Shown here: positions 1 to 5,770 of the stretch, in pieces | Position numbering within the stretch: position 1 is the first letter of the stretch | Layout of the letters: the number at the start of each line of letters is the position of its first letter | Origin: Planctomycetota bacterium | Lineage (GTDB): Bacteria; Planctomycetota; Phycisphaerae; Phycisphaerales; UBA1924 | Assembly (NCBI GenBank): GCA_030950285.1 | Contig: JAUZRR010000033.1 | Span: 1-64,000, forward strand | DNA: 64,000 bases | Reading direction: 5' to 3' | Made by a program: the position numbers and the translations under genes | The notes under the pieces: model-generated | The model's input: the letters and a program-made list of their open reading frames with translations, nothing else | Databases searched by the model: none | Told to the model about the DNA's origin: nothing

Positions 1-462
1 GACCGAGTAGACGGTGCCGTTGGCGGTGGTGCCGTTCCATGTAAGTTTGATGCCGCCGGAGTTGAGGAGCAAGGCCTGCAAGCTGGTCGCGGGCGTCGGC
101 GCGGCCAGCGGGCTGGCGTCGTTATACGGCGAGAGGTTGGCGGCGGTGTAGACATCGGCAAACGCCGCGTCGCCCTCGAGCTGTCCTGTGGCGTCGGCGA
201 AAGCGCGGATGGTGGCGACGAGCGCCGTGCCCAGGCCCATCATAGTGTCGATGGCGGTGTCCTGGGCAAAGATAAGGTTTCGGGTGTCCTGCTTGCTCTG
301 CTGCGCGGCGGTATAGCTGCTGCGGGCGTCGATGACAAGCGACGCGAGTGCCGCGACCTGGTCGGCGGTGAGGCCAACTGCGGCCGGGTCGGCGACTCAC
401 TGGGGGAGCCGTTGCTCGAAGTACTCGATCTTGCCATCTTTGTCGTTCGGAAATGAACTCAT
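1..462 (-). pseudogene. Hypothetical protein, 5' end interrupted by an in-frame TGA (397-399); continues off the left edge
   Basis: ATG at 462 with AGGAG upstream gives MSSFPNDKDGKIEYFEQRLPQ*; the same frame continues after TGA as VADPAAVGLTADQVAALASLVIDARSSYTAAQQSKDTRNLIFAQDTAIDTMMGLGTALVATIRAFADATG... to the window edge. Confidence 0.55.
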
Positions 463-706
463 CGCGATTCTCCTGTCGTGCGGCTGGGGGGCTCCCAGCG
501 GCCGGTTGTCTGCCCGTATCACGGCGGTTCGAGGGCGCGACCGGGCGGGTGTGCCGAGGACATTCCACGGCGTGCGGAGAAGATTTCGGGGCTTTGCCGG
601 GGCGGCTTGAGCGGCTGCACGGATTGTGCGGCAAGATTCCCGGGCTTTCTGCGATTCTGTGACGAGGCACGACGGGCTTCCTCTCAACCGTTCCAGACTT
701 GCCATG

Positions 707-1599
707 CCCTCAACGCGCTCGCAAAGGCGGGCCGGAGCCACCGCCCCGCCGCGTGATGCTCTACGGCACGCACTGTCAACGCGCTCGCAAAGGCGGGCCG
801 GAGCCACCTGCATGCTCAATCTGCCGCGCGATCTTTGCCTGTCAACGCGCTCGCAAAGGCGGGCCGGAGCCACCGCGCATGGCCGACTCCAAGGTCGCCA
901 ACACCTGTCAACGCGCTCGCAAAGGCGGGCCGGAGCCACCTTTGGCACTCTTCGAGACGCTGCTGACCGGCCGTCAACGCGCTCGCAAAGGCGGGCCGGA
1001 GCCACCTCTCGGCACTGGACAAGGGACTCGGCGACGCTGTCAACGCGCTCGCAAAGGCGGGCCGGAGCCACCAACTCCCTCGACCACCCGCACTGCCTAC
1101 CCCTGTCAACGCGCTCTCAAAGGCGGGCCGGAGCCACCCCAACCCTGCTGGTGTCGCGGGTTCAGTTGCTGTCAACGCGCTCGCAAAGGCGGGCCGGAGC
1201 CACCGCCGAGGACGAAATTGAAGACGACGAGCCCTGTCAACGCGCTCGCAAAGGCGGGCCGGAGCCACCCTGCTCGACCGCATGATTTTCTTGCAACAGC
1301 TGTCAACGCGCTCGCAAAGGCGGGCCGGAGCCACCGGGAATGGGGTGGCACTACCGACGGGCATACTGTCAACGCGCTCGCAAAGGCGGGCCGGAGCCAC
1401 CGTCACGAAGAGTGACAAGTCCAAGACCTGCCTGTCAACGCGCTCGCAAAGGCGGGCCGGAGCCACCGCGTGTGGCCACCGGCAACTTGTCGCACGCCTG
1501 TCAACGCGCTCGCAAAGGCGGGCCGGAGCCACCTCAGTTCGTAACCATCCGACGGAGCGCAGACTGTCAACGCGCTCGCAAAGGCGGGCCGGAGCCACC
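707..1599 (-). CRISPR. CRISPR array: 14 repeats of 36 bp (plus strand CTGTCAACGCGCTCGCAAAGGCGGGCCGGAGCCACC), 13 spacers of 30 bp (one of 29 bp)
   Basis: Repeat starts read directly at 707, 773, 839, 905, 971, 1037, 1103, 1169, 1234, 1300, 1366, 1432, 1498, 1564. Spacers are unique. Variants: R1 CCC for CTG, R5 CCG, R7 one G>T. Minus orientation is inferred from co-direction with the effector and the degenerate terminal repeat at the left. Confidence 0.97.
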
Positions 1600-1724
1600 C
1601 CGACAGGTCGTAAACCGTGTTCATTGCACGATTTCCAACGCGTGGCATGCATAAAAACCGACAATGGAACATCAGAACTCCGGTCTTCGGACCATTTTGG
1701 GCCGATTCTGTCCTTGCCCGACAT

Positions 1725-1940
1725 GCCAAAGAGCCCTGGCCACGGGGCCAACACGCCTTTCTGAGTGCGTTCGTCCGGCTGACAGAAAGCCCCACCCGGG
1801 CACAAGGCTCGGGGGGTATTGGGCAGAGATCAGGCACGAGTGCCATTCACCTGCCACGCCGATTCTGACTCGACAGCACCGGACGGTCCGCCGCCGGGCC
1901 TGTAGCCGGGCGGCCGCGCCGGGATGTTCTCCCGGTAGCA
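1725..1940 (-). ncRNA. Candidate tracrRNA containing an anti-repeat at 1754-1771
   Basis: Plus strand CGCCTTTCTGAGTGCGTT (1754-1771) matches 15/18 of the minus-orientation repeat core CGCCTTTGCGAGCGCGTT. A minus transcript would therefore carry AACGCACTCAGAAAGGCG, complementary to the crRNA repeat. Hairpins nearby: CCGGGA-gatg.. (1919-1935), GGCAC-GA-GTGCC (~1832-1843). Boundaries approximate. Confidence 0.6.
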
Positions 1941-1945
1941 TCACA

Positions 1946-1974
1946 AGCATACTGCAAAGCGGTGGTTCCGGCAA
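1946..1974 (-). promoter_or_regulatory. Candidate sigma70-type promoter for the tracrRNA
   Basis: Minus strand TTGCCG (1974-1969), 17-bp spacer, TATGCT (1951-1946), just downstream of the effector stop and upstream of the anti-repeat. Confidence 0.35.
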
Positions 1975-2019
1975 GAGGGGCGGGCGAGGTGCCCACCCCA
2001 CGGGTGCCAGATACCTGCC

Positions 2020-4233
2020 TCAGAAAGGCGTCTCGGGCATAGGCTCGCCGGCCGGGTCAAGACCCAGCACCCGCTGCGCCCCAGTCTCGATGGTGTCCTT
2101 GTCGACCTCATGCCCATTGACCCTCCACACATAGGCCCGGCCGTTGCGGTTCTTGCTCTTGACCGTGGCTGTCTTGGGGAACAGCCCGAGCAGCACGCGG
2201 TGCAGGTTCTCGCTGGCGTTGATGTCGGCGTGGACCTGTCGCTCACAGGCCGGGCAAACGAACCAGTGGCCAAGGTGATGCAGGTGCGGGGTGTTTCGCA
2301 GGGCGTCTCCAGACTTGCCTTCGAGTACCTTGGCCCGCTTGGCCCGCCACTTGGGGGCACCCCGATCAAACCGGATGCCCATCGCGTCACACGCGGCGCA
2401 GATTCGGCTCGTGAAGTACGAAGGCACCTTGAAGACACGCAACCCATAGGTCTCGGCGGCCTGCTCGGCAAAGCCCACGATCGCGCCGCGGTTCCAGCTC
2501 GAAAGAGCCGCGTTGATTCCGCGATCGTTGGCCGAGTCGGGGTTGAGCATCTTGAGGTCCTCGAAGATGACCGCAGCGGCCCCGTAGTGGCGGGCATAGC
2601 AGAAGATCGCCGCGACGCCCTTCTTGAACCGGTCCTCCTGCATGTTGCGGTAGTGGGCGGCCATGCGGGCGCAGGATTCCTTTCCCGGGGCCATTTTGCC
2701 GGTAGCGCGGCGCATGCGGCGGAGTTGCTTCTTCACGCGGGCGACCTCGGACAGCGAGGGAATGTTGATCGCCCGCTCGCGGCCCTCGCCGAGGAAGAAC
2801 CGGTTGTGGAGGACGCGGCGGGCGATGATCTCGCTCGTCCAATCCTTTGTCTCGGGGTCGAGCACGCTGCGGGCGATGCTGGCTGCGCCAAGATCGCGGA
2901 TGCCCAGATCGACGGCGCAGGTCAGCAGCGGCTCATCGGGCGTCCAGTCCTGCTTGGCGAGTTCCTTCTGCTGCCAGGAGACGGCGTACTTGCCGGCGGA
3001 CTTCTGGGCGATTCCGATCGCGCAGGGCGGGGGGGCGATCTCGAAGGACACGAGCAGATGCCACCCCCCACCCGACCCGTCACGTTTGACGAGTTTCAGG
3101 CCCTGCGGCTGGGCGGGGACGGTGTCACCGGCAGGTGTCTGCCACTCGTAGTTGAGAGTCTTCCTCTTGCCCTCGGTGATCTTGATCGGCTCGGCCAGTC
3201 GTCGCAACGCCCGGATGCGGCGGTCGGCGACAAACGAGACCCGTGTCCACTTGCCCTTACCTTCCTCGTATAACGCAAGCTCGACAGTCCCGGCATCAAG
3301 GCAGAGGTTCTGCCAACCCTCGCCCCCCTTGAAGCGCGGCCAGTCGGGGTGTTTCTCGATGCTTGGCAGCGTGAAACTCGGTCGGTGGCGGAAGCCGTCG
3401 GGGTGGCGGCGCTTGGCGCGGCGACGCACATACTCCCGCTCGTAGGAGTTGTGCTCGCGGTCGAACGCCGCCAGCTCGGGATTGAGCTTGAAGACCAATC
3501 CGTTGAGCGCGCCGGCCACCTTCTTCCTCGGCTTCTTTTGGATGATCTCGTCGATCTGCTCCTGTGTCGGATGGACAGCCCGCGTGCCCGGTGTCTGCCA
3601 CGACACTATCTCGGGCGAACCGAGCAGGAAGTCACACCACGCCGTCCAACGCACACGCGACCCACGGGCCGCGCCCCGCTCACGCTCGAATGCCTCAACC
3701 AGCGGGCGGACCTTCATGTAGTCCGGGTGCTCGTCTTCCCACTTCTGCTTCGCCTTGATCCACTCGGCGTGCTCTGATTGCCAGAGTTTGTGCAGTTCTT
3801 CGTACGACTTGATGTACTCGATCGACCGGCGGTGCATCTGGCCCCACATCCCGTTGGGGATCGAGTCACGCACGGCCGACAACTGCGAGTGGCCCCCGTC
3901 GTTGTCATGGTTTTTGGTCTCCGCGTGCTCGACACGGTATTGTTGTGACAAACTGAACTTGTCGGTGTCCTTAGGCGGATCTGGCAACGGCTTGGTCAGC
4001 CAGGTGAGCGGGTCGGACTGGACATTCTTCGCGCAGTACGCCCACATGGCCCGCCCGCTCGGCCCCAGCCGCCCCGCCCGCATGTCCATCAGCACCGCGA
4101 CAGTTCCCGCCACCGCTTCGTTCCACTGGGCCAGCCGCCGGTCGAGCAGTTCGGCCAGTTCCGGCCTGTCCACATGCACCTTCATCTGCCAAGTCTTCTG
4201 TGCCATGAACCTAAGTGTACGGGGTTCGTTCAC
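2020..4233 (-). CDS. cas12: Cas12-type (class 2 type V) RuvC effector, Cas12g-like (possible starts GTG 4233 or ATG 4206)
   Basis: Three RuvC motifs: CAVDLGIRDLGAASIA (D), AAAVIFEDLKML (E), QVHADINASENLHR (D). Split zinc ribbon CAAC...CPAC. About 730 aa, next to a CRISPR array. The segment EWIKAKQKWEDEHP resembles my recollection of Cas12g1. Confidence 0.88.
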   Translation of the reverse strand: MNEPRTLRFMAQKTWQMKVHVDRPELAELLDRRLAQWNEAVAGTVAVLMDMRAGRLGPSGRAMWAYCAKNVQSDPLTWLTKPLPDPPKDTDKFSLSQQYRVEHAETKNHDNDGGHSQLSAVRDSIPNGMWGQMHRRSIEYIKSYEELHKLWQSEHAEWIKAKQKWEDEHPDYMKVRPLVEAFERERGAARGSRVRWTAWCDFLLGSPEIVSWQTPGTRAVHPTQEQIDEIIQKKPRKKVAGALNGLVFKLNPELAAFDREHNSYEREYVRRRAKRRHPDGFRHRPSFTLPSIEKHPDWPRFKGGEGWQNLCLDAGTVELALYEEGKGKWTRVSFVADRRIRALRRLAEPIKITEGKRKTLNYEWQTPAGDTVPAQPQGLKLVKRDGSGGGWHLLVSFEIAPPPCAIGIAQKSAGKYAVSWQQKELAKQDWTPDEPLLTCAVDLGIRDLGAASIARSVLDPETKDWTSEIIARRVLHNRFFLGEGRERAINIPSLSEVARVKKQLRRMRRATGKMAPGKESCARMAAHYRNMQEDRFKKGVAAIFCYARHYGAAAVIFEDLKMLNPDSANDRGINAALSSWNRGAIVGFAEQAAETYGLRVFKVPSYFTSRICAACDAMGIRFDRGAPKWRAKRAKVLEGKSGDALRNTPHLHHLGHWFVCPACERQVHADINASENLHRVLLGLFPKTATVKSKNRNGRAYVWRVNGHEVDKDTIETGAQRVLGLDPAGEPMPETPF

Positions 4234-4391
4234 GCGACGAGGCAGACGAATCTGCTCTCGGATGCAGTGTCAAGGCGGAATGAAGCTCGGGGAGTTGAAT
4301 ATGGAAACCGAACGCCCGCCAACTACGCCCTACGTTCTCGGACGAGCCCATAAAAACGGCCGTTGGAGGCCGCTCGTGCATGGTGCCTCGC

Positions 4392-4620
4392 GAATCGTCG
4401 CACGATTCGGCCGAATCGTCCCACGAAACGCGCGGATCGTTCCACGAAACCGGCGGATCGTTCCGCGATTCGGGCGGATCGTGCGACGAAACGGCCCAAT
4501 CGTTCCGCGAATCGCCTCCATCGTCCCACGAAGGAGCCTCTCCGCGCCACGAATCGACGCCTTCGTGCCGCGATGGAGCCGCTTCGTGCGACGGATCGAC
4601 GCCTTCGTTTCGGGAATCGG
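4392..4620. repeat. Degenerate 21-bp tandem minisatellite, ~11 copies
   Basis: Units such as GAATCGTCGCACGATTCGGCC, GAATCGTCCCACGAAACGCGC, GGATCGTTCCACGAAACCGGC, GGATCGTTCCGCGATTCGGGC. Open in several frames (RIVPRNRRIVPRFG / RGTIRPNRGTIRRF). Confidence 0.9.
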
Positions 4621-4628
4621 TATGCCGT

Positions 4629-4687
4629 CATGGCCACCCAAAGCTGTGGCCATGGCACCCGCCACCCAAAGCTGTGGCCATGGCACC
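4629..4687. repeat. Two copies of the dispersed repeat (CATGG)CCACCCAAAGCTGTGGCCATGGCACC
   Basis: Copies at 4629-4659 and 4661-4687; a third copy at 61213-61243. Confidence 0.85.
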
Positions 4688-4864
4688 CGGCACCCGGCAC
4701 CCGGCAGAGCCATGGTCATGGCACCCTGCCCCCTCGGCCGAGCAGTGCATGCTGACGACCCGTTGTGCTGTCCCCGGGGCACCATGGCATCTATACTGCC
4801 TTCCGGGACCGGGACGCTGGCGGCTGTCGCCGGGGCTCACGGTCGCGGCGGAGCCGCTCCCCTG

Positions 4865-5770
4865 ATGTCAACCACCCCATTCCCCATCGAACTCGCAACC
4901 GACGGCCCCTTCGGCGGGATCTGCACCATCCGGCTCGACCAGCCCGGGCGGCCGGTCGTCGTGCTTGATGAGCCGCTGATCCGGCGGCTCGACGCCACGC
5001 TCGACGCCCTGCCCGCCGGGTGTACGGGGCTTGTGCTGGCCTCGGCGAGCCCGAAAGTCTTTGTCGCCGGGGCCGATCTCAAGACCATTGTCGAGCTCGA
5101 CGACGAGCCCCTCGACCGCTACCTCGCCTTCGGCCAGCGGGTGTTCGGCAAGCTCTCGCAGCTGCCCTTCCCCACCGCCGCGGCGATCAACGGGGCGGCG
5201 CTCGGCGGCGGGCTCGAGGTCGCGATGCACTGCGACGCGCTCGTCGCGGCACCCGCAGCCGGCGGCAAGCCCTACCCGGTCGGCCTGCCCGAGGCCGGGC
5301 TCTCGATCTGCCCCGGCTGGGGCGGGACCAACCTGCTGCCCGCACGGATCGAGCCGGGCGAGGCGGTCCGCCGCACCGCGACGGGCAAGCCGATGAAGTT
5401 TGACCAGGCCCGCGAGGCCGGGATGTTTGACGCGGTCGCCGACTCGCCGGACGACCTGCTCGACGAGGCCCGGCGGTGGGTCGCGGCGAGGATCAAGGCC
5501 GGCGCAGTCGTGCGCGACGGGGCGCCTTCCCGGTGGATCGGTCGCAGCGCCTGCGCGGCGGCGTGCCTCAGGGCGTTTGACACGGTGCGGGGCGAGCTGC
5601 CCGCGACCGAAGCCGCGGCGGCCGTCGCCGACGCGGTCAACGCCGGCCTGACCGAAGGCTGGCAGGCGGCGCTGGACTGCGAGCGCCGGCATCTGGTGCG
5701 GTTGCGGCGGACCCCCGATGGGGCGGCCGCGATCCAGACGTTCTTCGAGCGATCGGCGGCCAAGGCTTGA
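4865..5770 (+). CDS. Enoyl-CoA hydratase/isomerase family protein
   Basis: Crotonase-fold signatures ASPKVFVAGADLKTI and AINGAALGGGLEVAMHCD. ATG at 4865 chosen over the longer ORF. Confidence 0.85.
   Translation: MSTTPFPIELATDGPFGGICTIRLDQPGRPVVVLDEPLIRRLDATLDALPAGCTGLVLASASPKVFVAGADLKTIVELDDEPLDRYLAFGQRVFGKLSQLPFPTAAAINGAALGGGLEVAMHCDALVAAPAAGGKPYPVGLPEAGLSICPGWGGTNLLPARIEPGEAVRRTATGKPMKFDQAREAGMFDAVADSPDDLLDEARRWVAARIKAGAVVRDGAPSRWIGRSACAAACLRAFDTVRGELPATEAAAAVADAVNAGLTEGWQAALDCERRHLVRLRRTPDGAAAIQTFFERSAAKA

Follow-up and report, generated by a model that had tools for sequence, protein, structure and literature searches.

A predicted tracrRNA with long and short anti-repeats in the effector-array interval of a compact type V-B2 CRISPR locus

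Does the 419-nt interval between the effector gene and the CRISPR array of this planctomycete locus (1601-2019) encode a tracrRNA, and how would such an RNA pair with the crRNA? The question was raised by an initial annotation of the window, the 64,000-nucleotide stretch of DNA analyzed here, which took an imperfect inverted copy of the repeat core in this interval for the anti-repeat of a tracrRNA. We found that the system is a fresh instance of an already known kind, type V-B2. The interval very probably carries a tracrRNA gene, and we are confident in reading the locus as a minimal V-B2 CRISPR system with dual (long and short) anti-repeats. In silico, effector, tracrRNA, and array follow one another in this order, all read leftward (Table 1).

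The effector comprises 728 amino acids from its probable start (ATG 4206), and its open reading frame reaches upstream to GTG 4233 (737 amino acids). The PADLOC Cas12b model PDLC01654 matched residues 10 to 693 of the 737-residue frame (E = 4e-88), and the NCBIfam Cas12b model as well as the Cas12g and Cas12f models matched mainly over the RuvC part. The RuvC residues D433, E549, and D661 were invariant in alignments with relatives, and the zinc-finger cysteines, with two CxxC pairs, are retained. Relatives of the effector came from profile searches of planctomycete genomes; scanning genome contigs with a single protein returned none, so that profile search and alignment were required. With the family alignment, a scan of named genomes recovered (E = 3e-66) the locus of Planctomycetes bacterium RBG_13_46_10 (L037; A2167_01675-01685), the published V-B2 exemplar (PMC8036902). 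A search of plasmids found nothing, and a search of viral contigs gave one match, confined to a short RuvC stretch. In a tree of the RuvC region, all V-B2 rows, including the window, lay to the same side of a weakly supported branch (72/72). The AlphaFold model of the effector was poor (mean pLDDT of 52). Refining the initial account of this protein, we assign it from its sequence to V-B2, the compact Cas12b family with a single RuvC site. Upstream of the effector gene, positions 4374-4619 hold a series of tandem-like 21-bp repeats (TCGTNCCACGAATCG type) that is open in several frames. Directly upstream of the V-B2 effector of another locus (L026, 2016-8570) lie two open reading frames of 755 and 759 amino acids with similar N termini and, between them, one of 620 amino acids.

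Adjacent to the effector gene is the array of 14 repeats, whose repeat sequence in leftward reading is GGTGGCTCCGGCCCGCCTTTGCGAGCGCGTTGACAG. The leftmost copy is degenerate, with GAGGG in place of GACAG; since this decayed copy marks the trailer end, the direction of the array is fixed as leftward. The leftward polarity that had been proposed for array and tracrRNA is thus supported, and the identical gene order of the relatives points the same way.

We next consider the proposed anti-repeat itself. Plus-strand positions 1754-1771 read CGCCTTTCTGAGTGCGTT and are, exactly as the initial annotation had it, identical at 15 of 18 positions to CGCCTTTGCGAGCGCGTT, the opposite orientation of the repeat. 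The blocks of 7, 3, and 5 bp in which minus-strand 1771-1754 was said to pair with the leftward-read repeat are correct, and both peptides that had been cited from the list of reading frames, TNALRKAC (minus strand) and VNALAKAG (plus strand, in the array), are present. Cofolding of 1940-1725 (minus strand) with the repeat, a check proposed in the same place, extended the pairing past 1754. The long repeat:anti-repeat duplex of dual-RNA V-B systems is found in the window, and the window's own repeat formed it best (-29.8 kcal/mol versus -9.6 to -26.3 kcal/mol for the repeats of seven relatives). Outside the array, 1754-1771 is the sole site with at most three mismatches to the 18-mer on either strand of the 64 kb.

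A GC-rich region could nonetheless match a GC-rich repeat imperfectly over 18 nt by accident. The match is modest when taken alone, the window has three further places with 15/18 to some part of the repeat, and the local-alignment score of the window anti-repeat was equaled in 1 of 100 shuffles. Against this, a match this close, in register and on the same strand, arose in just 6 of 20,000 dinucleotide-preserving shuffles of the 419-nt interval. A match by chance alone is unlikely, yet not extreme, and the case for an anti-repeat thus rests on comparison with relatives.

Eight V-B2 loci, namely the window, L024, L026, L037, L038, L067, L068, and L069, had both an effector and an array, and the effector-array interval of each was searched on both strands for its best pairing with the repeat. 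The best match on the effector strand had the same start in all eight loci, position 6 of the reverse-complemented repeat. It lay between 179 and 249 nt past the effector stop and always left the final five repeat bases unpaired. The strand opposite the effector gave no consistent repeat match across the eight. The long anti-repeat was matched by at most 1 of 100 shuffles in six loci, the window among them; it was weak in L038 (8/100; not significant alone) and just 7 nt long in L024 (69/100; not above chance alone), and both of these share the register. Conservation in related loci, which the initial annotation had named as a check, therefore holds in register, strand, and position and supports the prediction of a tracrRNA anti-repeat. 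That the same register, strand, order, and distance recur in seven relatives also argues against an accidental match.

To the 5' side of the anti-repeat, the V-B2 loci have a common architecture. Because MAFFT alignments of the more divergent tracrRNAs misplaced the stem that we call P3, the model of this body was started from three close loci and then enlarged through covariance search. Covariance model R1, made from three relatives with the window and every anti-repeat left out, found two held-out relatives at E values of about 1e-12 and a further two with values of 7e-4 and 3e-3; in L024 it reached only 10.8 bits, but its match ended exactly where the anti-repeat starts. In a seven-row alignment, both partners had changed in 26 of 39 pairs, and the paired share of cells was 90.6%, compared with 70.0% after shuffling and 30 to 48% with the strands slid, although these pair counts lean towards the structure, to which the alignment was fitted. 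Covariance model R2 (built on seven relatives, with the window and all anti-repeats excluded) was run unfiltered on 1601-2019 and gave one clear match, at 1915-1773 on the minus strand, that covered all model positions and ended one base before the anti-repeat (E = 9e-4 in the 419-nt interval, 12.9 bits). Since R2 did not single out the predicted site when run over the whole 64-kb window, this match is a test of the predicted place and not a discovery; R1 gave the window site an E value of 1.9 over 247 kb. No Rfam family matched positions 1-5000 of the window.

The tracrRNA would be recognizable in that its relatives keep the pairings while the letters differ. The variation is plain in P3, which reads CGTCCGG/CCGGACG in the window, TTTTCGG/CCGAGAA in L024, ATGGGGT/ACCCCGT in L026, CGATGTGT/ACATATCG in L037, CGTCGGGC/GCCCGGCG in L025, CCTTCG/CGAAGG in L038, and CCGTCG/CGACGG in L067 and L068. 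The loop of stem 2, GGCTACAGGC in the window, is GGCTATAGGC in the relatives. Hairpin 4 of the model (UUGA-GUG-UCAA) has little covariation and overlaps the short anti-repeat; it is probably no stable part of the RNA.

Guides of Cas12b contain, besides the long duplex, a short duplex of 5 to 7 bp between the long duplex and the guide (PMC11246509). The repeats of the relatives end in GACAC, and GTGTC sits 91, 92, or 99 nt before their long anti-repeats; in L026, the exact GTGTC is absent and GTGTT stands in its place. The window repeat ends in GACAG, and here CTGTC lies 105 nt before the long anti-repeat, directly after the 5' strand of P3, so that the short duplex beside the guide is found in the window as well. 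A second CTGTC occurs at -14; thus, the assignment of the short anti-repeat rests on position. On the predicted pairing, GACAG/CTGTC versus GACAC/GTGTC amounts to a compensatory change that spans two separate RNAs. In 20,000 shuffles, with limits that were set after the data had been seen, the long anti-repeat, P3, and CTGTC never occurred together in place. An origin of the 18-mer match by chance is extremely unlikely in light of this covariation with the repeat end and of the independent body model, which ends at the anti-repeat.

The 18-mer could also be a degenerate copy of the repeat, inverted and located in the leader, that does something else, for instance as a crRNA-like regulator, with an effector that, like Cas12 enzymes of several other subtypes, uses crRNA alone; Cas12 itself processes crRNA in at least half of the characterized type V subtypes (PMC12669027). 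What is conserved, however, is the anti-repeat and not a full inverted repeat, with the final five repeat bases always free, and the conserved structured 5' body and two-duplex arrangement fit tracrRNA-dependent V-B systems (PMC11246509). We regard this reading as very improbable. The tracrRNA is predicted to span about 1940 to 1730 on the minus strand with the 18-mer near its 3' side, which refines the initial annotation.

Table 1. Annotated and predicted features of the locus (window coordinates)
Feature	Position	Strand	Basis or remark
CRISPR array	707..1599	-	14 repeats of 36 nt, mostly 30-nt spacers
Predicted long anti-repeat, AACGCACTCAGAAAGGCG	1754..1771	-	Pairing with repeat; local alignment prolongs it to 1748
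Predicted stem P3, 3' strand, CCGGACG	1772..1778	-	Adjoins anti-repeat; covaries across loci
Predicted 3'-proximal hairpin of tracrRNA body	1790..1816	-	Cofold and R2 alignment
Predicted central tracrRNA hairpin, GGCACTCGTGCCT	1832..1844	-	R1 submatch and R2 alignment
Predicted short anti-repeat, CTGTC	1872..1876	-	Complements final five bases of window repeat, GACAG
Predicted stem P3, 5' strand, CGTCCGG	1879..1885	-	Pairs with 1778-1772; covaries across loci
Predicted stem 2 hairpin, GCCGCC..GGCGGC, conserved loop GGCTACAGGC	1890..1914	-	Covariance-model matches; stem covaries in seven relatives
Predicted 5' hairpin of tracrRNA, CCGGGAGAACATCCCGG	1919..1935	-	Minimum-energy cofold
Possible tracrRNA promoter, TTGCCG-17 nt-TATGCT	1946..1974	-	8/12 consensus; below promoter-scan threshold; weak
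Effector, compact Cas12b-like (V-B2) nuclease	2020..4206	-	PADLOC match and alignments with relatives

In the working that we propose, the 5' end of the tracrRNA would form a hairpin, followed by a stem-loop whose loop is GGCUAYAGGC and by a multibranched body that P3 closes. P3 adjoins the long anti-repeat (1771-1754). The long anti-repeat would pair inwards along the crRNA repeat, starting at the sixth base from the repeat end, and the short anti-repeat CUGUC (1876-1872) would pair with the repeat end GACAG beside the guide. Transcription may start at a weak promoter after the effector stop. RNase III, which is encoded in the window's genome, would trim the duplex, and the dual RNA would load into the effector, which would then cut spacer-matching DNA with its single RuvC site. 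A scan of the window locus for promoters and terminators gave none above threshold; L067, L068, and L069 have TATACT boxes, similar to the box of the candidate promoter, directly behind their effector stops. Shortly 3' of the long anti-repeat, five loci (L067, L068, L069, L038, and L037) share a conserved motif, CTTTGACAAG, whose window counterpart is CTTTGGCATG at about 1730; this motif could be the 3' end of the tracrRNA or the -35 box of an array promoter.

Whether the locus still works is a separate matter. Cas1 (PF01867), an adaptation gene and as such an accessory, non-defining feature of these systems, was not found in the window's genome, which is 94.6% complete. The window copy may no longer acquire spacers, or its adaptation genes may sit in the missing part of the assembly. 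A Cas4-Cas1 fusion gene stands beside the V-B2 effector in L026, and a 610-amino-acid open reading frame whose start resembles such a fusion occupies the corresponding place in L069; no adaptation gene was noticed among the open reading frames of L037. Comparison of the array with a phage collection gave marginal matches and no convincing spacer target. Both RNA and nuclease are predictions from sequence, and because of this, the missing spacer matches, and the missing Cas1, present activity of the locus is unproven. The tracrRNA might accordingly be a decayed relic that once worked and is now unused, in a locus stripped of adaptation genes; the lack of a strong promoter and the divergent body, with its R2 score of 12.9 bits, would also fit. 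However, the effector reading frame is intact with all RuvC residues kept, the repeats are nearly identical along the array, and P3 and both anti-repeats form pairs whose letters suit the window repeat. We consider a relic distinctly unlikely.

The 3' end of the effector gene, including its stop codon (2019-2031), is a perfect 13-nt complement of anti-repeat positions 1765-1753 (16/18 overall) and exceeds the longest run of the crRNA:anti-repeat pairing, which is 7. Such a complement reaches at most 10 nt in the seven relatives; it was found in the window alone, and we rejected it as a general V-B2 feature. It may reflect chance or local regulatory pairing. One speculation, which we hold to be doubtful, is that V-B2 traded protein for RNA: its effectors are about half as long as the large planctomycete Cas12b proteins and would have in common a structured tracrRNA body of about 140 nt, with 91-105 nt instead of about 32 nt between the short and long anti-repeats. 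On this view, in the window, read-through from the effector gene could also mask the tracrRNA via 2019-2031, coupling effector and guide levels.

Among known systems, the window most directly invites comparison with the V-B2 exemplar, L037. The two share the effector family and size (743 amino acids in L037), the order effector-tracrRNA-array, the register of the long anti-repeat, the place of the short one, and a similar RNA body. They differ in the repeat end (GACAG, not GACAC, in the window) and its complement (CTGTC, not GTGTC), and their effectors are about 32% identical. Studies of a V-B2 tracrRNA, guide, or activity, experimental or predicted, were not found in the open-access literature, with subscription papers mostly outside the scope of the search, and we do not claim priority. 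Type V-G effectors (Cas12g) resemble that of the window in size, dependence on a tracrRNA, and RuvC similarity. The window effector nevertheless has a full-length PADLOC match to Cas12b, whereas the best stretch for the Cas12g model PDLC01702 covers only residues 497-683 (E = 1.7e-11, versus 4e-88) and a full-length Cas12g match is absent; the V-B2 body model likewise had no match in two Cas12g loci (L030 and L034). Type V-L (Cas12l) has an intergenic tracrRNA next to the effector, with a 12- to 13-bp anti-repeat after a nexus-like hairpin (PMC9724661). By description, it is like the window in the placement of this RNA and is set apart by an effector of about 860 amino acids followed by Cas1, Cas2, and Cas4.

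V-B1 Cas12b systems (e.g., BhCas12b and AacCas12b) share with the window a dual RNA in which repeat and anti-repeat form a long and a short duplex (PMC11246509). Five loci, L072-L076 (G063, G046, G495, G067, and G327), encode very large planctomycete Cas12b proteins, some from the window's own family, and their repeats differ hardly at all from those of V-B2 loci (e.g., L072 versus L069). As in V-B2, repeat position 6 is where their long anti-repeat starts, and their short anti-repeat is complementary to the final five repeat bases; the locus whose repeat ends in GGCAC carries GTGCC. Their effectors, however, have 1468 to 1701 amino acids (1468 to 1676 in the four that were scanned), compared with 728 in the window. 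The spacing between the anti-repeats is 32 to 41 nt in four of the five (L072, with 91 nt, is the exception), compared with 91 to 105 nt in V-B2. The V-B2 body model found no match in these loci, and the extra V-B2 spacing is made up by the conserved structured body. For the compact Cas12b branch V-B2, the window locus offers a dual-RNA design that can be tested; covariation among nine loci points to the RNA parts that matter, and a 728-amino-acid nuclease with a defined guide would be of practical interest. Comparing V-B1 with V-B2 would be useful in asking whether the scaffold of the guide RNA takes the place of protein domains in small Cas12 enzymes.
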